A DNA stretch of 64,000 nt from Saururus chinensis (lineage: Eukaryota > Streptophyta > Magnoliopsida > Piperales > Saururaceae): assembly GCA_035235625.1 (NCBI GenBank), contig CP141149.1, positions 33,969,753 to 34,033,752 of the forward strand, read 5' to 3'. This document shows positions 498 through 55,870 of this stretch, in pieces. Every line of letters starts with the position of its first letter. Position 1 is the stretch's first letter. The position numbers and the translations under genes are program-made. The notes under the pieces are model-generated. The model searched no databases. It had not been told where the DNA came from and saw nothing but the letters and a program-made list of their open reading frames with translations.

Positions 498-1065
498 TAA
501 TATCCGAGAATTTTCTAAATTTCCAAAGTTGGCCATGTAAAAAATATGGTGTTTGACCTTTGACCTTCTCAGTATAATAAATAACTCATAGATAAAATTT
601 AGGACTAAGACCTATATTGATAGAAAGTAGACACAAATATTTTCGCAACACCACCAAGAACACGCTAATTGGAGTTCGGAAGTGGGAGATATGACTGTTC
701 GAAATTGAACTTGGCACGTAGGGCTCGTTTACTCGCATTAGATGCACAAATTGACCATTTAAGTTGCTCTATGGAGCGGTTAATTAAAGTAATGAAACTT
801 AGTTCAAAAAGCCCAATTAAGTTGCCTAATAGAGGTTTAGTTGGCCCAAACCTTTTGGGGGACCAGGAATCCTAATCCTCTTGATTATAAAAAAAAATTG
901 GGTTTTTTTTTAGAGGGGGGGGGAGGGTTTAGGAGGAGACGAAGCCATTGGAGGCAGAGATTTACGATAACTGGTGCAAGCATGGCCGACGATGGAGGTG
1001 TGGAGGACCAAACAAAAAAAATGGATGATGAAAATGTACGATTCGTATTTTTAATTCTATTGGCT

Positions 1066-2262
1066 CTAAATATGTAAAAATTACATTATATAGGTAAAAG
1101 GATTAGGGTGGCTGCCAACTTTGATTTGCCGAGTCATGACCGACATTGTCAAAAGCCATCATGATCTCCTGGGAAATCATCACCAGACGACCAGTTGGGT
1201 TGGGTTTGGAGGGCGGCAACCACTGTAGGTTGAGCTACGACTGGCTGATTTTGGGGTAGTCGTTGAAAGGCCTCCACTTTCTTCTTCACTGGCTTATATC
1301 TTTTCTATGAAGATAGTTCTGACAAAGGCTAGACTTTTTGTGGAGAGTTGTGGGTGTGGCTAGAGGCGAGGGGAATACAAGAAGAGGTTCCCCTGCAGGC
1401 ATGGCCACTGGAGAAGTCTATTTAGGTTGGTGGCAATAGGGTATCCATGTTGCCACAGTGGCTCCAAATATGTAAAAATTACATTATATAGGTAAAAGGA
1501 TTAGGGTGGCTGCCAACTTTGATTTGCCGAGTCATGACCGACATTGTCGAAAGCCATCATGATCTCCTGGGAAATCATCACCAGACAACCCCAGTTGGGT
1601 TGGGTTTGGAGGGCGGCAGCCACTGTAGGTTGAGCTACGACTGGCTGATTTTGGGGTAGTCGTTGAAAGGCCTCCTCTTTCTTCTTCACTGGCTTATATC
1701 TCTTCTATGAAGATAGTTCTGACAAAGGCTAGACTTTTTGTGGAGAGTTGTGGGTGTGGCTAGAGGCGAGGGGAATACAAGAAGAGGTTCCCCTGCAACC
1801 ATGGCCACTGGAGAAGTCTATTTAGGTTGGTGGCAATAGGGTATCCATGTTGCCACAGTGGCTCCAAATATGTAAAAATTACATTATATAGGTAAAAGGA
1901 TTAGGGTGGCTGCCAACTTTGATTTGCCAAGTCATGACCGACATTGTCGAAAGCCATCATGATCTCCTGGGAAATCATCACCAGACGACCCCAGTTGGGT
2001 CGGGTTTGGAGGGCAGCAGCCACTGTAGGTTGAGCTACGACTGGCTGATTTTGGGGTAGTCGTTGAAAGGCCTCCTCTTTCTTCTTCACTAGCTTATATC
2101 TCTTCTATGAAGATAGTTCTGACAAAGGCTAGACTTTTTGTGGAGAGTTGTGGGTGTGGCTAGAGGCGAGGGGAATACAAGAAGAGGTTCCCCTGCAGCC
2201 ATGGCCACCAGAGAAGCCTATTTAGGTTGGTGGCAATAGGGTATCCATGTTGCCACAATGCG
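1066..2262. repeat. three tandem copies of a ~400-bp unit
   Basis: The sequence TGTAAAAATTACATTATA recurs at about 1073, 1471 and 1871, giving a period of 398-400 bp. The copies are nearly identical, which points to recent tandem duplication. Each copy carries a short minus-strand frame of about 62 codons beginning MKKKEEAFQRLPQ in the two later copies. This frame resembles no family I know and is probably not a gene. The array lies downstream of the TATA-like box of the surrounding LTR-like element and is absent from the related copy at 39447-42827. Confidence 0.85.
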
Positions 2263-4972: not shown

Positions 4973-5863
4973 GGGAAAATGAGGAAGAAGTTGCATCTTT
5001 ATCGTGGCACATAGTGAAAGCCCCCCAAACACAACCAATTTAGGGAGTTCAAAGGTTGGGTTGAGTTGTCATGTCCATGTCGACTCAGACCCGGCCTCTG
5101 GTGCCAATACCTGGCCAGCGTTTAAACCACCTTCCTATCCCCCAGACACCACTAGTAATGGTTGGCAGCGCATTTTATTTTACTGCCAAGTCTCCTAATT
5201 ACAGAGTAAAACTGCAACTGTATTCATCTACGTAAACCTTTTTGACTATGAGCAAGTGCCTGACTTGCATTTGTAGCATTATGCTTGCATTCGTGCAGAT
5301 ACTACAACTTCTCTGTAGGAGGCAAAAGAGAGAAACCAAAATGTCCCAACACAAATAGAGTAAGAATTTTGGTGATGCCGAATGGCACCATCGCCCCAAT
5401 ATTTAGAAGTTGGGCATTTTACGTTTACTTTCAGACTAATAGAGCTGCCATGATCATTTCACTGAATACATGTAATCAAGAAACCATCAGGAGTGATCTA
5501 ATGGAACAAATTCCCTTCCATCCCCAGCGAAGCCATATTAGTTTTGAGTTTTGTATCTCTTGGTTTCTTTTGGGACAATCGACTCTGGATTCAATTTCGT
5601 TGGCCAGTGGACAAGGTCACAAGAATATCATCCATTTAACTTACAGGGGACAAGAACATCATACACTGACATTCCACGTTCAAATACACACGTTCCCCTC
5701 TCCCAAAATGTGAAGTGGCCCCGGAAAGGGCATAACAAATCATCACGAAATCAATGCTGCTTCAGCAAGCTAAACACAAAAAAGTACCCAGATTCGGATG
5801 GTCTGAATCATCTGCTCAAACCACAGTGCCCTCTCTGCTCAAACAAAATTTTGACTTCATCTC
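4973..5863. other. region 3' of the dsRBD unit, unassigned
   Basis: Open frames occur on both strands but none resembles a known protein. If the dsRBD unit is transcribed, this stretch would hold its 3' UTR and polyadenylation site. Confidence 0.35.
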
Positions 5864-6008
5864 CTAATAGCCAAGCTGCTTAAGACACCACAGTACCCCC
5901 TCTGCAGCATGCTCTGCAGCAGCCTTTTTCTTCGCCTTAGGCTCACTGACGCACTCTATCTCGTCGCATGAGGCACCCTGGACTTGAACTGTGACTTTGT
6001 AAGTAAAC
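5864..6008 (-). CDS. dsRBD unit, exon C (last)
   Basis: Acceptor CAG at 6009-6011; stop codon at 5864-5866. It encodes the second half of the dsRBD, beginning FTYKVTVQVQ, including the basic [14 protein letters not shown] helix, and ending CLKQLGY. It has the same length and phase as DCL4 exon 25. Confidence 0.75.
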
Positions 6009-6731
6009 CTGTATCAACAAAATCCATTTGCTAATGAGATATTATTTATCCTTTAACATACATTGCTATTATTAATGTAGTGATTTGATAAATTTCCCTC
6101 GGAGCAAAATTTGAAAATTTCATAGTTGAAAGGATTGTTTACAGCCATACCTTCTCAGGTGGCCTTCTCCTTCCTCCTTGCTACACTCGAACTTCGGAGG
6201 ATCCCAGCCGTAGGCGGTGCAGATTTCGTACAAGTGTGTTTTTGCCGGTCTCTTGGTAGGATCAATTAGGCCTGTTTTTGCCGGTATCTTGCTTGAATCA
6301 GTTAGGCCTGTTTTTGCCGGTCTCTTGCTTGGATCAGTTTGGCCTGTTTTTTCCGGTCTCTCGCTTGGATCAGTTTGGCCTGTTTTTGCCGATCTCTCGC
6401 TTGGACCAATGAGGCCTAAGACTAAGATGAGATTTTTGCAGCCATATAAATTAGATGCAATATATAATAATGAAGACGTACCTTTTAATTGTTCGACAGC
6501 GTTACAGTCACTGAGGTCGATGGTTTGAATGGGGGCCAATTCCAGTGGTTTCAGCGACACATTCAACTCCTTCAGCAGGGATTCAGATAAACCAATACGT
6601 TTCCTCTCAAATGAAGGCGACCCTTCGACCTGCTCAACACTCGGCTGCTCCAGCTGAACGCTTCCAGGAATATCATTCTTCTGTAAACTCCCATTTGTTT
6701 CCACAAACCCCATTTCCTGATCAAGACGTGA
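5864..6731 (-). CDS. DCL4-like dsRBD-only unit (three exons), partial tandem duplicate
   Basis: Three exons on the minus strand (6482-6731, 6151-6415, 5864-6008) join in frame and end in a double-stranded-RNA-binding domain like the C-terminal one of DCL4. Exon B carries HLYEICTAYGWDPPKFEC and exon C carries [19 protein letters not shown]4 exons 24 and 25 carry [18 protein letters not shown] and [16 protein letters not shown] at the same places. Intron phases (1, then 2) equal those after DCL4 exons 23 and 24, and exon C is 145 bp, exactly like DCL4 exon 25. The first exon shows no similarity to DCL4 exon 23. No stop or frameshift interrupts the exons. A possible first coding exon with its own ATG is at 7176-7229. 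Predicted role: dsRNA binding, either as a small stand-alone protein or as an alternative C-terminus of DCL4. An unexpressed but still open duplicate is also possible. Confidence 0.7.
6151..6415 (-). CDS. dsRBD unit, exon B with 12-residue repeats
   Basis: Bounded by acceptor TTAG and donor GTATGG. It encodes five 12-residue repeats followed by the first half of the dsRBD (HLYEIC through GEGHLRR). An alternative acceptor 6 bp upstream would add two residues in frame. Confidence 0.7.
6236..6415 (-). repeat. five tandem 36-bp (12-residue) coding repeats
   Basis: The repeat has a consensus like GQTDPSKRPAKT and occurs five times without breaking frame, ending directly at the HLYEIC start of the dsRBD. 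The last residues (AKT) correspond to the AKS before RLYEIC in DCL4 exon 24, so the array looks like a local expansion of the linker in front of the domain. Confidence 0.85.
6482..6731 (-). CDS. dsRBD unit, exon A
   Basis: Acceptor TAG before TCACGT, donor GTACGT; 250 bp, ending in phase 1. It encodes a polar stretch beginning SRLDQEMGFVETNG that I do not recognise. An acceptor CAG at about 6717 is an alternative start of the exon, and an in-frame ATG lies at 6713. Confidence 0.5.
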
Positions 6732-7175
6732 CTAATCGTCACTTACCCAAATATAACTCGTAAATCTTACTGAAAATTTAAACACGTCCACAAAATAATT
6801 TGTTTTCCTTTAAGCTTTCTCAGAAGGGAAAAAAAAAGTAGACGTTGAACACTTTCCAAAATTAACGTATAATTTTATAAAACATCATCCAAATAACAAC
6901 CCCAATGTAAAGAAACCAGTGGGCATCTAAACTGCTAGCTTTTGCCCTCAAATATCTCTTATCTCTATTTTTTTGTCTTCAAATTTGACGCAGCACCTGT
7001 TCTCTGACGCAGCCCAGGTGGTGTAATTGACCATCCAGATTAAAAGAAAGAAAATGAATGGATCGACTAAGTAAACACTCCCATCGCTTTTTTTGGGGTA
7101 TTGGACTCTAAAAAACAGGAGAAAAAAAAGCCTGCAATCAATACGGAAAGAAGAAGGGCGAGTAAACAGCTTTAC

Positions 7176-7229
7176 CTCTAGCATTGGCACATGAAAACCA
7201 CACATTGCGCTTCCCAGGCTGGCACCCAT
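7176..7229 (-). CDS. possible first exon of dsRBD unit
   Basis: ATG at 7229, then 18 codons (MGASLGSAMCGFHVPMLE) to a good donor (GAG then GTAAAG). Phase 0 fits exon A. There is no homology support; the call rests only on the splice signal and frame. Confidence 0.25.
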
Positions 7230-7489
7230 TGATAATGGGAACGGTAAAGAAGAAAGAAATGGTATCGGATACCCTACCTGTGCTACAAGCAAATGCTGGA
7301 ATTGGGTATAAAAATACAAACAGAGAAGACACACAAGACCAGTAAAGGTGCGTTGCCGAAAGGGAAGGCTGATAATGACCGCCTCCTGACACCCAGTCTC
7401 CCATTTCACGTGTTCTTAAGAAAAATCTTATCTTTTTGTCTATTTTATTTTCTGGGAGTGATCCTACTCTGCGACTGAGTGTTTTGCGC

Positions 7490-7810
7490 AAGCACCCAGT
7501 AGACTGAAGCCGGGGCTGGCTTGAACTGAGAAGGAAGCCATGGCCTGGGTGTCGACGCCGGCCTGTGAAGGGAGGACGGCCAAGAGAGGTCGTCGTCCGT
7601 GGTAATTGTGCCAAAAGGCCCCCGATGGCAGCGGACAGGGCTGGCCTGGTGGCGGTGATGGCGACAGCGTTGAAAACAAAGACTACTTGGCAATCTACGC
7701 GTTGAACCCGGGCTCCAGCTGCTTGAACCGCATTCACAAATGCGCCAACGGGTTCACCAGCAGTGCCGCGACCTTAGGCGCCACCACCATCGCCGCCGGT
7801 TAGCTCCTCC
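7490..7810. other. GC-rich, coding-like block of unknown identity
   Basis: A sharply GC- and CpG-rich island in AT-rich surroundings with long open stretches on both strands. On the minus strand one frame reads PVGAFVNAVQAAGARVQ. I do not recognise a family. It could be a promoter or first-exon region for the dsRBD unit or a captured gene fragment. Confidence 0.35.
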
Positions 7811-9032
7811 CATGGCCAGCAGTCTAATGGAAAAGACAGAAAAAGACCGCTACTTTCCCTGCTCTAGTCCAGAAAGGTATGAGAGGCTTGAAGGGCTATG
7901 GCTTCATCTCGTCTTCTAGTACGGCGGTTGCCAATGGCCGCGAGTTCTAAGAAAATGCTAGTTCCATTTCCCCGGGAAAAGGGTGGTGGAACTGATCCTT
8001 GGAAACAGATGAAGGTGCTCCCCACTCGCAATGGGGAAAGTTTTTATAAGCCCACTGTAGGGAACGCAAGTGGACTATCCACATTTGAGATGGGAAGCGT
8101 TTTTAAGAAAAAAATGGGTGCCACAAAATTGGAGGCTTGCTTATTTCCTAGGTACTGGGATAGGCCTTTGGTTTAACAATTGGCACACAAGCCACAAGCT
8201 AAAGCTAGTTCCAATGACCTAATCTCGACTAATATCATGGCTCCGAAAAATATGTTCGATAAATGAGTTACACCCCACAGAGAAACAAAGCTGCCACCAG
8301 TTTTTGCTTCACCCGGCCGAGTCAGAGATCTCTGGTTTGGACTTAGCTGTAACATTAAAAAAATGTCTTATATATACTAATCAAAATACAAGAGTTTAAA
8401 ATATATTATACAACTCACACATACATATTATCACTCCGCTCCCCGCTTATATTCAACTGAAGCCAAGCGTCGTCTTGTGGCAAAAGCGGGAGTTTTTATT
8501 TTCTATTTCCAGTGTTAAAAAGAGTCCCCCGCAGGGCTTGCGCCTGTTCCTTGAATACCAAACGAGTTCTGATCCAGTTCTTCTAACCTTTCCAGAAAAA
8601 AAAAAAAATCAGTTCAAAAGCTCCAAGTCTGAAGTGGCAGGCAAGTTCTACCATTCATTCAATCAACAAGTGTGCTCTATATCCTACAAACAGTAATTCA
8701 AGTAGGATCAAGATATTGTAACTCACTTTCACTAAATTGTTTAATATCTGATGGTTTAAATTATCCTGCCTGTTGAATGCTCCTGTTGTAATGCAATCAC
8801 TTGTCATATCTCAGTCAAAACAACGTATTTTGAACCAGGTAATGCCATCCCAAATACTTGTGGGATACCAATGCTAGTTTATAATAATCGCAGTTTTTAA
8901 CAAACCTTTTGAGTCGAATGCACCTGCAACTATCTAAAAACCCACTTTTTTTTATCGGTAACCATCCAAGCTACCTATGCGATTTAAGTACCACAATGAA
9001 AACCATACATCTTCTGCACAGTGATACTCTTC
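7811..9032. other. spacer between dsRBD unit and DCL4 stop
   Basis: A plus-strand frame at 7898-8176 (92 codons) resembles nothing I know. The rest is AT-rich. The DCL4 3' UTR should lie here; an AATAAA-type signal on the minus strand is seen only at about 8496. Confidence 0.35.
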
Positions 9033-9177
9033 CTAAAACCCTTTGTGCCGGAGGTACCACAGTGCCCCTTCCGCAGCATGCTCTGCTGCAGCTTTTTTCT
9101 TTGCTCGAGGTTCACTGAAGCATTCTAAGACCGTGGTCGTAATTTCTTCAAATTGAATAACAACCTTGTATATGAAC
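9033..9177 (-). CDS. DCL4: DCL4 exon 25, dsRBD2 end and stop
   Basis: [20 protein letters not shown], then [16 protein letters not shown] and a TAG stop after RHKGF. Confidence 0.92.
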
Positions 9178-12100
9178 CTGTATGCATGCAAAATTAAATT
9201 TAGCAAGATTAAGTATGCAATTATCATCACAATGCTAATTGAATGCAAGATTGCATAGGTGAATTTAATTTGAAACATTAAATAACGTATCAGTGGATAC
9301 ACATGCATATATCAGTTGGATCAGAAGGATACAAGAGGGTAAATCAATACACAACTTGTACCATTTTTCTGTCGTTAAAATTTTCTAAGGTATATATATA
9401 TATATATTAATTAATTAATAATTTCTTACTAATTTATTAGTCTAATATGTCTCCCTTAAAAGGTACTATTAGCTGGGCTAAAGGAACTCAAATGAAACCA
9501 AAGAATTTCAGCCCCTACCACCATGGAGACTTGAACCATGGAAGTGGACCAGGATGCCTCCTGCATTTGCCAATAGGGCATGGCGCATTTGGCAAATCAA
9601 TCTAATATATCTTTTAACAATTTACATATTTTTCAAAAATATGATTATTTAATATTTCTAAATTTCTATTACTTTCAGAATGACTCAATGCTTGAGATTG
9701 ATTAATACAAATCAAATTTCAGCATCTTATGATGTTAAAACATTGTAGTTAGTTGATGTTTCTGTCCAGCATAGTAACAAAGTTGGCATTTCCGTTTGTT
9801 TCAGTGAGGGGCCATTTCATGTTCAGTTCGTTTCATTTCAGAAAATTTTCAGGAAAGTTTCAAAGTGTTAAAAGAGGAAAAAGAAGGAAGAGGAGGAGGA
9901 AAACTTCTAAGGAAGATGGGAAACCCAAAAAAAGCCCTACTTAAAAATAACTTGCTTAAACTGTAAAAACATTTAAAATTACCTTCGCCTAAACTGTAAA
10001 AAATAAAAAAATGACCTGCCTAAAATGTGAAAAATATAAAATTACCCCTTCCTAAAATATAAAATACCGAAAATATCCTGCATAAAATGTAAACAATCGA
10101 AAATAACCTGCCTAAAATGTAATTATCGCAAAATTTCAAAATCTAGCAAAATAGACGGAATTTCGAAATAAATTTTGGTTTAGGCCCCTTTTTGTTTAAA
10201 TTATTGAAATTCGCTAAATTTTCGCAAAATTTGTTACTATGCTGTCCAGAACTCAGACAAATATAAATAACAAAATATATTGCTACTACCCTCAGACAAC
10301 TAACTTCAATTCATCAATGGAGCAGGTTCATTAGTTCTAGACAAATATATTGAACAATCATAAACATCTTTCACTCAGCTAATTATGCAGGGCAGGCATA
10401 GGACATATATCTCTAGTGAACTAAAGGGAGCCATGTGATGCTATAGTTACTTGCAGTGGTGACTTACATTTTTGAGTGACATGGTCCTGTCTCACCACAG
10501 CAAATGAATGAAGGAGGATTCCAAGAGTTGGCAGCACAAATCTCATACAAACGAGACTTTGCAGATCCTTTATAATACAAAGTACAACACAATAACCCAA
10601 TAAAAAATTAAGAGGCCATTGTATTTTAATGCCAAAAAACAAAGATGCATTGTATCTATGACCAAGGTCAAGTTTTTAAGGAGTGCATACCTGTAGTGAG
10701 TTGGCTCCTCATGTCATAAACAGATTCATATGCCCCACCATTACAATGTGACATTTGCAATGAAGTATTACTTTGAGTGGTACAAATCCTATCAGAAGTA
10801 CCTGTCGATTCTTCCCCTTCTGCATCATGCATCTCTTGCAAATGAAGAAAATCAGGTGGACCACACATTATTGGAGTTTCATCATAGCCTATAAGCTTTT
10901 CTTTCTCCTTGCGAGCTGACTGTATGATTTCTTTCAACGATCTAACCCTATGTTTGTACCCTTGGTCCTGTGCATATTTGTAATGAAGTTGTCAAACAAA
11001 ATCAACAGTTACAAATGTCTGGGTACACAGAGCAAGTTATTTGCATAAAGAACTTGTTATAATAAACTGAATTCCGTGAATAGTCATGCATATTTTGGCA
11101 GATATGAATTTATATTTACAACTGAAAAGCTCCCTACACAGATTTTCAGTATTACCTGATATAATATGCAATAAATTCGGCAATGGGATAACTATAAACT
11201 CCCTCTGTTCAGAAATGAGTGTCTGATTTCAAAAAGATTTTTGTCCTGTATTAAGTGTCCGATTTCATGGGTTCTTATGTGCATCTCCTCCTACACGTCT
11301 CCTTCTTCCTTCACCAGCCTCTGTTTCCGGTCAATTCAAATCCCCTGCCAGCTCCACCGGCACCACTGCATGACCTGACTTCCAATTAGCCCTCCTCAAA
11401 TGACCCATCTCCGTGCACATCCCCTGCAACCACCCAGAACCCAGTGAGCTAAAAATTGCACTGCCAGTGACCATCTCCATAGCTGCCTTGTGCATCTTCT
11501 CATGCCTCGCTATCATCTTCCTCTGCTGCCAGAAGACCGGGCGCCTGGAGGCGTCACAGAAGCTGGCCGTCAGCAAAAGCTCCAGGCAGCTGAGAGCCAA
11601 GGTGCCCATGAACAATGCTTCTGCCATTAGCCACCATGGAAGAGCAATGGAGCCGTCAAATCAGAGATACTGATCCAAATAGCTCATAAAGCTTCCGCTG
11701 CCACCACCGGCAATGGACCAGAGGCATGTCATCTAATCTTAATTTTCACAGGTCTTATTGGCTATGGTAGTCATGGCATTTAATCAGAGACTTGTCACTG
11801 CCGCCAACCCCGTGAATGGGAAAAGGGGACTCACTGTTGCTTTAATATGTTCATTTGCATAGAACTTCCTCAAGAAGATGCCTTTACACTGGTTCCCTTG
11901 ATGGAAAAATCGTTCAGTCCCACTCCCACCATTTGCTTTTGCTGGCACTGGGAGAGGCTGCAGAGCTGGTTGTGCAGTTCAAACCGCCATCCCCACAGAG
12001 GAGCATGAAGTCCTCTGGATGAAGCTCTGCTGCTTCTTTGGTACCAGTACATAGTTCACCCCCTACCATGATATCATGTGACTTAAAATTTTGACCTTTT

Positions 12101-15100
12101 CAAAATCAGACACTTATTTCAGGACAAAGGGAGTATAAGAAAACCTTTGAAGTAAAAGACACACCAAGTGTAAAAATTTCGAAAAAATCCCCAAAATTCA
12201 AAATTGCCAGTTATCCAATAAGGCTTAAGATAGAGGTTAGAATTGGCAAGTTGTTTTATCAACACCGGAGACATTCCAAAGCATATTAACTACAAATGTG
12301 CAAGCATCACGGGCAAGTTTAGCTATCCCATCGCGGATGAGCAATTGAAAGACATTCTCAATAATTATGAGATACTAATCAGTACAAAGTATGATGTGGC
12401 AATTGGTTTAAAACAATCAGCATGAACATTAAAATTGTCCAAGATCAAGTGCAATGGCATGATATGGTTCATGTCACTGACCCTACTTAATTGGGATGTG
12501 ACGATAATCATAACGATGATAGAATTAATCATTATATAAATATCTTAAGTCTAATCAAGACATTGACCAGTGTTAACTTAGATATTTCATTGGTGAAAAG
12601 AGCCCCCAGTAAGCAACATGATAAAAACCCTTACATTAAGAACAACAAAGATCAATGATTTTTGTGAGGCTTATTTGGAGGACTTTAAGCTAGTGGTAGT
12701 AACACCATTGTTATGGGCTTTGAATCATAAGAGAGAACAGAGATGAAGATTTCATGCTATCTTTTACTATATTTGTCTTAATTCAAATATATATAAATAC
12801 CCACAGCAAGTCCAAAGTTGCATTACTAATCATAACCTTTGGCATACAACACTCACACACTAACTGCCAACAGATACAGTTTAAGCAGATAAGAAGGTTT
12901 CTGCATTATTTGTTACAAAATCAACTTGCATAATCCAATTTTTTCAATTTATTTATGAAAGGCTTAACCAATAAAAAAAATAGATGGGAGCATATACTGT
13001 GAATTAGCAATACTGCTGACTGTTCACTACTGTACATTATGAAATGATCCTCGATTCTACTGTTATCTTGACGTTAAGAATGCAAAGTACTAATCTCTTT
13101 TGCACTACAAAATGTAATTTACGTTAGTATATTGTATTTACATGGTGTTATAATTGTTTTAGATTAATACTAGGGCTTAAATCGTAAAAACATTTTTTGG
13201 TTGCCAATAATTTTTGTCCCATTAACTCCGATATATTTTATCTTTAGGTCACCGATATATCTCCAATAAAAGATATTGCGAACCATGGAAAGAAGAAATA
13301 TTTCTGCTAATAAAACAGATGATAGAATTACAAAGCTTATGTAATTATTTGGGACTCACACCTAGTTTTACTATGCATTTATATCATTACAAAACTATGC
13401 TGGTTTTTCGCATACTGAAGCTTACAAAAATGAAAATATTTATGTTCCACAGTATCCACCATCTACTCAGGTCTAGTCTCAGGTTAAGATTTTACCGGAA
13501 TAAATTTGCCGATGGAACATACCAAAAATTTGTAAAGTGAATAGGTCCAGACAATACCTTATTTCCTGTTCTATTATGTACATAAATAAAGGCCATAAAA
13601 GTTATACCTTCAATTTTAGTAGTAAATCCTGGGATGCAAATCTTTCAGCTGTTTTTTTTCTCGAATTGCTTGCATGGCCACTGAAGCAGCTTCCATGAAT
13701 GCTCACTTCCGCTTTAGTGGAAAATACCCCTATATCTGTCCTTGAATTTTCAAACCTCAATATGAAATTGGCAGATTGGCAAAGTTCCTGAAGTTCTCTA
13801 AATGGATTCAACTGCACACGTGAGAAACTGACGACCGGACACAATAAGGGCAACATTATTGTCCAAACACACTGTAAATTTAAACCACTGTCTAGAAGTA
13901 TGGCTCCAGCGCAAGACTCTACTAAATCACCCAATACCTGAATCAATAAAGAAGAGTCAACATTTGATGTAGAGATTTCATATTATGAATTCAATTCAAA
14001 ACTCAGATTACTAATACATAAGAAGCATTAAAATATCAACAATAGGAAAAAAAAAACAATAAGTTACCCCCACATCGATGAAAGAAACAGATCTGGTGTA
14101 ATGGAAGCTGTTCCTTTGGATCCCATGAGGTTTCTATTTTGAACTGAGGATTCATAATATAAAATTTACCAGATCTTATCAATAGTTTATTGAGCGAAAA
14201 GTTAAACCTATGGGTTGCATTAAGATACGAAGGCTTGTAGACACCAGATAAATCAGTGGGGTATCAGAATCAATTTTTTCTCTACTGCTGAGTCATATCC
14301 CTGCCATTCCACTCCCTCTCCACCCCCCCCCACCCCCCACACCACACACACACACACAAAAAGAAAAAAAAAGGAGAATGTAATGACTAATGGGGTTTGT
14401 TGCACATACTGACATTACGTTAGATAACTATTTCTAAAAGTTTACACTGAAAGTCAAAGGAAATGTATCTTGAAGCCATTGCAAATAATGGCTGAATTAG
14501 ATAGTGTTTGCCTTCATGTGACTACGAAGGACATTACATAAAAGCTTACATAATAATTCAGCCCTTTTGAGGTAAAAATTTCTAGATTGTATTTACTGCA
14601 GGTTGATCAATCTGAATTCACCTTTTTGGGGCCGACAACATGCATTCAACATTGCAACACAACCTTTTCTATACTGCATTTCATAAAATTAATACAAGTC
14701 CAAAAAGATGATGTGGAAGTAAACGTTAAGAATGTTTACCTTTGGGCATATTGGCTCCTCAAGCAAGTACTGTTCCTTTTCAGGTAACTGAACAAATTCT
14801 ACAAATTTATCAATTGCCATGGAGAGATATTTCGAATCACTAATGAGGTATGACTGAAACGAGTGTGACACAGCCAACCGGGCAAATGAATTATTATTTA
14901 CAGCAATGGATCTCAAATCAGTCAGCTGACCAGGTGTAAGATCAGGAAAAACTGAGAAAAGATATGACGTAATTAAGTAGTCAATGACAGCATCCCCCAG
15001 AAACTCCAGCCTCTACAAAAATTAAGCAATGTCAGCAAGATAATTAAACATCACATTCTCTACGAGACAGATAAAAAATATTATCTCTGTAGCTGCAAGC

Positions 15101-54950: not shown

Positions 54951-55870
54951 GGCCGTGCAATGGCCTCCTTTCTTCGACCGTCCTCCCTCTCTTGGCCAAG
55001 AAGTCGAAACCTTCCTCTGTTGCTCTCCTTTCTCCGCTCACCAAGTCTACTCCCCGGCTGGTGTCTGTCAGAGGAGCCGCCTCTTCGACTTTCTTCTCCC
55101 TCCATCCGAGTTCCCAGAGCGTAACAACCGGTGTCCGGTGGTCGTGCCCGGGCGGTGCACAGTCAGCCTCCTGTTTCACTTCGAGTCTGGAGCAGCTGAA
55201 AAGCGCAGAGAGGATATCTAGGAGCAGCTCAAGGCCACCTTTTGCTATCTGTTCATGGTTCGATTAGGTTGGCATGATGCAGAATTGCTCCAGTTAGCAA
55301 AGCGCTACAGCCATTCTGGAGGACCAAAAATACCGAGGAGATAGGGAAGAGTGGATGTCACGGGGCCGGAACAGTGCCCTGAAGAATGGAAGCTCCCAGA
55401 TGCTGGCCCCCCTTCACCTGTTGGCCATCTCTGTGATGTTTTCTTTAGGATGGGCCTCCGTGACAAGGAAATAGTTGCATTGTCTGGTGCACACACTCTG
55501 GGAAGGTCTAGGCCATTACGCAATGGATGGGGGAAGCCTAAAACTAAGTGCACAAAAGATGGACTTGGGGCACCAGTTAGGTAATCATGCACAGCGGAAT
55601 GGTTGAAGTTCGATAATTCGTACTTCAAAGATATCAAGGAGAAAAGAGACGAAGATCTGTTGGCTTTGCCACAGATGACGCTTTGTTTAAAGATCCTTCT
55701 TTCAAGGTCTATGCTGAAAAGTACGCAGTTGATTAAGATGCATTCGTCAAAGATTCATGCTAACCTGAGCAACCTCTGAGCCAAATTTGACACACCTGAG
55801 GGTTTCTCAAAGGACGACTTGCCCGAGAATTTGCCTCTGAACCTCTTAGCGTTCCTATGTGCACTATGGA
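54951..55870 (+). pseudogene. chloroplast ascorbate peroxidase processed pseudogene
   Basis: The plus strand carries a Ser/Pro/Arg-rich transit-peptide-like start (MASFLRPSSLSWPRSRN), SLEQLKSA, the distal haem site VRLGWHDA, then, after an internal deletion of roughly 50 residues, [58 protein letters not shown] with the proximal haem histidine, [20 protein letters not shown] and KFDTPEGFSKDDL. These match stromal or thylakoid ascorbate peroxidase, which removes hydrogen peroxide in chloroplasts. Exons run together without introns, so it looks like a reverse-transcribed copy. Frameshifts and stops (for example after GLGAPVR at about 55582) inactivate it. Confidence 0.88.

Follow-up and report, generated by a model that had tools for sequence, protein, structure and literature searches.

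A copy of the DCL4 C-terminal dsRNA-binding domain directly behind DCL4 in Saururus chinensis is probably part of a separate small DRB7-type gene

Does DCL4 of Saururus chinensis have a second C-terminus at its disposal, or is a gene of its own lying behind it? In the window, a stretch of 64,000 nucleotides, three exons (A, B and C; Table 1) are found on the strand of DCL4, 2.3 kb downstream of it, and the last two carry a copy of its C-terminal dsRNA-binding domain (dsRBD). A first-pass annotation had offered both a second DCL4 C-terminus and a small dsRBD-only competitor as readings. We consider that the three exons probably form an independent small DRB7-type gene and not a second C-terminus of DCL4.

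Table 1. Positions of the putative DRB7-like gene, the DCL4 exons and neighboring features in the window
Feature	Position	Strand	Remarks
Exon A, putative DRB7-like gene	6482..6716	-	acceptor 6716 best-scoring inside exon; ATG 6713-6711; N-terminal region
Exon B, putative DRB7-like gene	6151..6415	-	12-residue unit (LTDPSKRPAKTG type) five times in frame, followed by first half of dsRBD
36-bp x 5 tandem repeat, start of exon B	6237..6417	-	in frame, five units
Exon C, putative DRB7-like gene	5864..6008	-	second half of dsRBD and stop; 145 bp
Stretch between DCL4 and putative DRB7-like gene	6732..9032	-	nearly single-copy in genome
Decayed partial copy of C6 gene fragment	7531..7837	-	about 76-77% identity to source over about 300 bp; frame-shifting gaps
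DCL4 last exon (exon 25, first-pass numbering)	9033..9177	-	145 bp; second half of C-terminal dsRBD
DCL4 exon 24	10468..10567	-	first half of C-terminal dsRBD
DCL4 exon 23	10691..10967	-	linker; phase 0 in, phase 1 out
DCL4 exon 22	13608..13937	-	end of RNase IIIb and first dsRBD (our domain reading)

Exons B and C are open on the minus strand with AG/GT bounds, exon C closing with its own stop. The introns of the copy are in phase 1 and then phase 2, as at DCL4 exons 24 and 25, and exon C has exactly the length of the last DCL4 exon (9033-9177). The encoded dsRBD aligns with that of the window DCL4 over 75 codons without a gap, and 41 of the 75 residues and 139 of the 225 nucleotides are identical. 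The mirroring of DCL4 exons 24 and 25 described in the first-pass annotation, stop-free and with the same phases, was thus confirmed. The start that it gave to exon A, 6731, had to be revised. At this position the reading frame begins behind an in-frame TAG (ORF 6123-6731), and as an acceptor it ranks no higher than the top 59% among the region's AGs; the acceptor at 6716 ranks in the top 4.7%, is in phase 0 and stands three bases ahead of an in-frame ATG. A splice at 6769 would run into a stop codon at once. The donors of exons A and B and the acceptors of exons B and C all score well.

The context of the ATG, GAAATGG, is favorable by the usual rules, and translation would most likely begin here (6713) and yield a product of 213 residues, which contains no catalytic domain. 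Over these 213 residues, only two Pfam models exceed their cut-offs, the dsRBD models PF14709 and PF00035, which overlap at 135-209; the finding of a short protein with a single dsRBD presupposes the standalone gene model. No recognized Pfam domain was found in exon A. The predicted protein most likely consists of an N-terminal portion that includes a linker of basic repeats, followed by one C-terminal dsRBD. Derivation of exon A from DCL4 exon 23 was considered and is not supported, shuffled sequences reaching the global alignment score in 126 of 2000 cases and the local score in 1206 of 2000. The tandem repeat of exon B was absent from the first-pass annotation. Most differences among its units fall on the first two codon positions (5/9/2 differences at the three positions), and RNA structure in the repeat is nothing special (z-score -0.36).

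The copy matches Arabidopsis DCL4 dsRBD2 in a PDB sequence search (E 1.3e-22) and the Pfam model PF14709 (E 1.4e-15), thus its likeness to a dsRBD is above chance. It is 51% identical to Arabidopsis DCL4 (83 bits) and 44% identical to DRB7.2 (52 bits). KKK, H and GPxH are the usual dsRNA-binding motifs; the first two are kept in the copy, and the third reads GEGH. The predicted structure of the dsRBD (pLDDT 85) has a helix, three strands and a helix, and its top structural matches are 9k9p (Arabidopsis DCL4 dsRBD2 with the DRB4 C-terminal domain), 9kbz, 8igd (DRB7.2:DRB4) and 8z49 (DRB7.2). The AlphaFold prediction of the whole 213 residues, made alone and without relatives, has a pLDDT of 49.5 and is a hint only. 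In a dsRBD tree, the copy, the two DCL4s and DRB7.2 form one group against DCL1 and the DCL3-like rows (support 100/100). With seven rows, 77 columns and one DRB7, the best tree joins the copy to Arabidopsis DCL4 (41/0) and DRB7.2 to the window DCL4 (62/9), and forcing the copy and DRB7.2 together costs 2.2 lnL (p-AU 0.134). Judged by sequence, the dsRBD of the copy is a member of the DCL4 C-terminal subfamily, and it and the DCL4 C-terminal dsRBD are of common descent.

The DRB7 family is described as conserved in vascular plants. When the 516-Mb genome was searched with DRB7.2, five matches were obtained, of which only DCL4 (2.5e-8) and the copy (1.3e-5) fall below E 0.01. PF14709 has 15 genome matches; apart from DCL4 and the copy, they were read as DCL1, DCL3-like, DRBs and a C9/C11 pair whose N-terminal exon resembles a dsRBD. 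Among the best candidates of these searches, which were scored exon by exon, no second DRB7-like locus was found in the genome by either the DRB7.2 query or PF14709. A genome search with 6800-8950 returned the query itself and one 76% match of about 300 bp. If the DRB7-like gene is independent, its promoter must sit in the stretch between it and DCL4. A DRB4 candidate gene is located on C8 of the same genome; its candidate C-terminal exon, searched against the PDB as a whole and with its last 48 residues, gave no match up to E 10.

One rival reading is a non-functional relic, a pseudogene fragment that is open by accident. Between the copy and DCL4, dN is 0.35-0.39 and dS is 1.4-1.9, giving an omega of about 0.2-0.27 as an average over both lineages (LWL85, YN00 and maximum likelihood; NG86 is undefined), and unique residue changes number 10 in the copy and 8 in DCL4, that is, the copy has changed at a rate equal to that of DCL4. 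In neutral simulations from the DCL4 sequence, the observed protein conservation and third-position divergence occurred jointly in 0 of 3000 runs at each of seven distances. The 219 codons counted from 6731 stayed open in a fraction of 0.0765 of runs at d=0.1, 0.005 at d=0.25, 0.0005 at d=0.5 and 0 at d=0.75 and 1.0. Signs of a pseudogene (stops, frameshifts, a neutral codon pattern) were not found in the copy, and its well-scoring splice sites also speak against decay. On the other side, exon A lacks a recognized domain, the repeat units vary mainly at first and second codon positions, and, taken by themselves, the 75 dsRBD codons are not particularly unlikely to stay open under neutrality (0.34 falling to 0.036; 0.12 at d=0.25). 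A relic is, on balance, highly improbable, and the hint at selection in the first-pass annotation has gained in strength: the copy appears to be old, yet constrained at the codon level. The decayed C6-derived fragment nearby provides an internal example of neutral decay. Gene conversion between the copy and DCL4, suggested by a well-conserved 3' stretch, was not supported, 5 of 15 codons for identical residues differing inside the stretch and 13 of 26 outside (P = 0.35, Fisher's exact test).

Two further explanations treat the exons as functional. DCL4 could have alternative 3' ends, whereby exons 23-25, 24-25 or 25 are skipped and the transcript ends with A-C, B-C or C, providing a second C-terminal dsRBD with another partner or RNA preference. 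The exons lie on the same strand a short way downstream, the junctions of exon 22 with A (6731 or 6716), 23 with B and 24 with C are in frame and free of stops, as the first-pass annotation had stated for 6731, and the 6716 acceptor is good and in phase 0. However, exons B and C owe their phases to the exons from which they were duplicated, and the match is hence no evidence for alternative splicing. Such a transcript must also pass the terminal exon of DCL4 itself, the acceptors at 6731 and 6769 are respectively poor and followed by a stop, and an in-frame ATG opens exon A. The phase match of exon A has no demonstrated homology behind it, but would arise by chance one time in three. We regard the proposal of two C-termini as unlikely. 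Rather unlikely, too, is a lineage-specific duplicate that arose separately from the DRB7 genes of Arabidopsis and came to a similar role, or to a different one. The copy still sits beside DCL4, it is nearer to both DCL4s than to DRB7.2, and it is not paired with DRB7.2 in the seven-row tree. Against this, its identity to the window DCL4 (53%) is close to that between the window and Arabidopsis DCL4s (55%), which together with a dS near saturation makes the duplication look about as old as the split of the two plants' DCL4s; grouping the copy with the window DCL4 is neither favored nor rejected (p-AU 0.168), and the searches of the 516-Mb genome gave no other DRB7-like candidate for the true orthologue. 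The small dsRBD-only protein is the better-supported option of the first-pass annotation, and it resembles DRB7 in the PDB search, genome search and structural matches; that it acts as a competitor is what we infer.

In the separate-gene reading, a tandem duplication of the DCL4 3' end would have given rise to a small separate gene, and its protein would most likely be a further DRB7-type member, a kind already described. According to the PDB titles of the structural matches, there are solved structures of both Arabidopsis DCL4 dsRBD2 and DRB7.2 bound to DRB4, and on this basis the protein may take the place of DCL4 by docking on the C-terminal domain of DRB4. The DRB4-DRB7 pair might then hold dsRNA and keep Dicers off it, as with inverted-repeat precursors in Arabidopsis. 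We put this docking, and the withholding of dsRNA that would follow, at about even odds. More tentatively, and with the balance leaning against it, this could be a DRB7 gene still at its birthplace, where the last exons of DCL4, encoding the domain that holds DRB4, were duplicated in tandem into a free-standing DRB4 decoy, the pair possibly being co-transcribed at times. If true, the tandem arrangement would tie the dose of the enzyme DCL4 to that of its competitor. A family link between DRB7 and the DRB4-docking domain of DCL4 was reportedly drawn by Clavel et al. in 2016, and the origin of this common domain is an evolutionary question. A DRB7-like gene that lies directly behind DCL4 and shares its intron phases suggests a direct route, the docking domain having been duplicated in tandem, and this reading predicts that DRB7 adjoins DCL4 in other plants.

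Among known systems, the C-terminal dsRBD of Arabidopsis DCL4 (9k9p, 9kby, 9kbz) is the best structural match, 51% identical and gap-free over 75 residues, whereas the copy has no helicase or RNase III part attached unless spliced to DCL4. Arabidopsis DRB7.2 (8igd, 8z49) likewise carries one dsRBD that belongs to the DCL4 subfamily; its identity to the copy is 44%, and its query-normalized TM-score to the model is 0.81-0.85. The copy differs from DRB7.2, which was compared over its dsRBD alone, in its N-terminal part with five basic repeats. It also differs in lying directly behind DCL4, whereas the Arabidopsis DRB7 genes (At4g00420 and At1g80650) and DCL4 (At5g20320) are on different chromosomes. 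In the cited passage of PMC8138440, DRB7 proteins are described as helping to choose which dsRNAs are diced and which are held back, and DRB4 together with DRB7.2 and DRB7.1 sequesters inverted-repeat dsRNA precursors processed by DCL3. DRB7.2 is placed in the epigenetically activated siRNA pathway in the cited part of PMC6356646 and in siRNA biogenesis in that of PMC7880056, in neither as an antagonist. By description, the copy would come close to Arabidopsis DRB7.1, which in the cited parts of PMC6356646 and PMC8138440 works with DRB4 against siRNA production.

The large minus-strand gene of the window is identified as DCL4 from its sequence, because its RNase III piece matches Arabidopsis DCL4 (4e-70) better than DCL3 (1.3e-47) or DCL1 (1.4e-36); annotation covered its last four exons. 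Three further exons (A, B and C, hereafter the copy) lie 2.3 kb beyond its end, and the open frames attributed to them in the first-pass annotation were found in the sequence. The start given there for exon A, 6731, was not upheld, being the mere edge of the open frame, adjoining an in-frame TAG, with a poor acceptor score. With general acceptor weights, acceptor 6731 falls in the top 59% and acceptor 6716 (gatcag/GAAATGGGG) in the top 4.7% of AGs in 5001-14500, and an in-frame ATG at 6713 comes just after the latter. The resulting A-B-C model encodes 213 aa with no internal stops. The acceptor at 6769 scores 6.71, against 6.88 for 6716, and would suit a 5' UTR intron, not a fusion to DCL4. 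Exon B opens with five in-frame units of 36 bp, which together code for a basic linker with a pI of 9.9; four of the five units finish in ACAGGC, so some could be used as alternative in-phase acceptors.

Features of the window and of the DRB4 candidate locus (contig named where outside window coordinates)
Feature	Position	Strand	Remark
Window	G000:C10:33969753-34033752		plant chromosome stretch
DCL4 exon 22	13937-13608	minus	
DCL4 exon 23	10967-10691	minus	
DCL4 exon 24	10567-10468	minus	
Tandem repeat	9944-10122		DCL4 last intron; AT-rich, units about 30 and 62 bp
DCL4 exon 25 (last)	9177-9033	minus	
Decayed partial copy of C6 gene fragment	7531-7837	minus	source C6:2299803-2300113
Copy exon A	6482-6716	minus	
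36-bp x5 tandem repeat	6237-6417	minus	in-frame
Copy exon B	6151-6415	minus	
Copy exon C	5864-6008	minus	
Tandem repeat	1061-2257		three 400-bp units, 97% matches
Peroxidase-matching open fragment	55345-55581	plus	PF00141, E 1.4e-10
DRB4 candidate, first dsRBD	C8:11114788		
DRB4 candidate, second dsRBD	C8:11115350		

The dsRBD of the copy aligns without gaps to that of DCL4 over 75 codons, starting at LYEIC and running to the C-terminus, with identity at 41/75 residues and 139/225 bases, and the two genes agree in intron phases and in a last exon of 145 bp. Exon A from 6716 and DCL4 exon 23 both begin in phase 0 and end in phase 1; a kinship search between them showed none, and no Pfam domain was recognised in exon A. 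It had been proposed that the copy exons provide a second DCL4 C-terminus by alternative splicing, and the proposed junctions are indeed in frame; however, in-frame B and C junctions are expected anyway from a duplicate of exons 24-25, and no observation made here favours this explanation, which is improbable but viable.

Read as a standalone gene, the copy would encode a short protein with a single, DCL4-type dsRBD. In the PDB its best match is Arabidopsis DCL4 dsRBD2 (1.3e-22), then DRB7.2 (8.7e-13), ahead of DCL1 (5.5e-8); the best two for the window DCL4 dsRBD are the same (6.9e-26 and 1.4e-18). A seven-row tree unites the copy, both DCL4s and DRB7.2 with 100/100 support, and its inner branches give no order among them. 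The copy is also the only DRB7 candidate in the genome (516 Mb, 11 contigs) at the sensitivity used, searches being exon by exon with only the best candidates scored, such that a very diverged DRB7 could escape. The DRB7.2 query gave five matches, with E <0.01 only for the last exons of DCL4 and the copy; the copy protein gave six, of which three are pieces of its own and two are exons of DCL4, while the sixth, on C7, is weak (E 4) and looks like DCL1. The 15 PF14709 matches, named by our reading of translations with a PDB check for two C8 genes and a tree check for DCL1, comprise DCL4 and the copy (4), DCL1 (2), DCL3-like genes (4), DRB genes (3) and a C9/C11 pair (2) with an N-terminal dsRBD-like exon. 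Given these properties and this tree, the copy is called a DRB7-type gene, possibly orthologous to DRB7. Among the papers listed in literature searches, judged by title or opening of the abstract, none dealt with a DRB7-DCL4 neighbourhood. Elsewhere, C9:26728059-26866795 (loci L012, L017, L018, L019) holds what we read as two DCL3-like 3' exon sets within about 140 kb, suggesting tandem DCL3 copies.

If a constrained gene is duplicated and one copy then drifts freely, the pairwise omega is expected to lie near or above 0.5. Between the copy and DCL4 dsRBDs, LWL85, YN00 and ML gave dN 0.35-0.39, dS 1.4-1.9 and omega 0.2-0.27, the last an average across both lineages; NG86 gave no dS (saturated). 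Differences at codon positions 1/2/3 number 25/22/39 (third-position excess, P = 0.014, one-sided binomial; P = 0.057, three-way chi-square). In free-drift simulations starting from present DCL4, with all change placed on the copy and indels ignored, the observed protein identity and third-position divergence were jointly reached in 0/3000 runs at each of seven distances. Under drift, an open frame is rare over all 219 codons (0.005 at d = 0.25) and not very rare over the 75 dsRBD codons alone (0.12 at 0.25, 0.036 at 1.0). With Arabidopsis DCL4 as reference, unique residues number 10 in the copy, 8 in the window DCL4 and 10 in Arabidopsis DCL4; because these counts form a star, the duplication seems to date from about the time when the two plant lineages separated, and by this count the copy evolves no faster than DCL4. 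A useful contrast to the intact copy is the decayed fragment between it and DCL4, which is 77% identical to its C6 source and already carries frame-shifting gaps. The open frame of that source includes MGGANEAAAAAV, and the first 100 residues from MGGANEAAAAAV have no Pfam match.

The DRB4 candidate on C8 best matches DRB4 in its first dsRBD (6.4e-29, versus 1.2e-22 for DRB2). Its candidate C-terminal exon (locus L051, 7279-7683), picked by eye, has no PDB match, and therefore its docking domain stays putative. About 7 kb upstream, a dsRBD open frame (C8:11107881-11108075; loci L011, L044) has the DRB4 second dsRBD as best PDB match (4.1e-17) and is possibly a further DRB4-related duplicate.

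Going by the structural matches given below, the copy protein may dock on DRB4 instead of DCL4 and, so docked, could withhold dsRNA. The review PMC8138440 describes DRB4, through its interaction with DRB7.2 and DRB7.1, as regulating inverted-repeat siRNAs by sequestering DCL3-processed dsRNA precursors. In PMC6356646, DRB7.1 with DRB4 antagonises siRNA production, and DRB7.2, unlike DRB7.1, is part of the epigenetically activated siRNA pathway; siRNA biogenesis engaging DRB4 and DRB7.2 is mentioned in PMC7880056. A model of the copy dsRBD, with the DCL4 sequence as sole relative, reached a pLDDT of 85, and its closest structures, by entry title, are Arabidopsis DCL4 dsRBD2 together with the C-terminal domain of DRB4 (9k9p), DCL4-DRB4CTD-dsRNA (9kbz), the DRB7.2:DRB4 minimal interaction domains (8igd) and the DRB7.2 dsRBD (8z49), in that order. 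Thus the two closest proteins, one internal to DCL4 (dsRBD2) and one free-standing (DRB7.2), have both been solved with DRB4.
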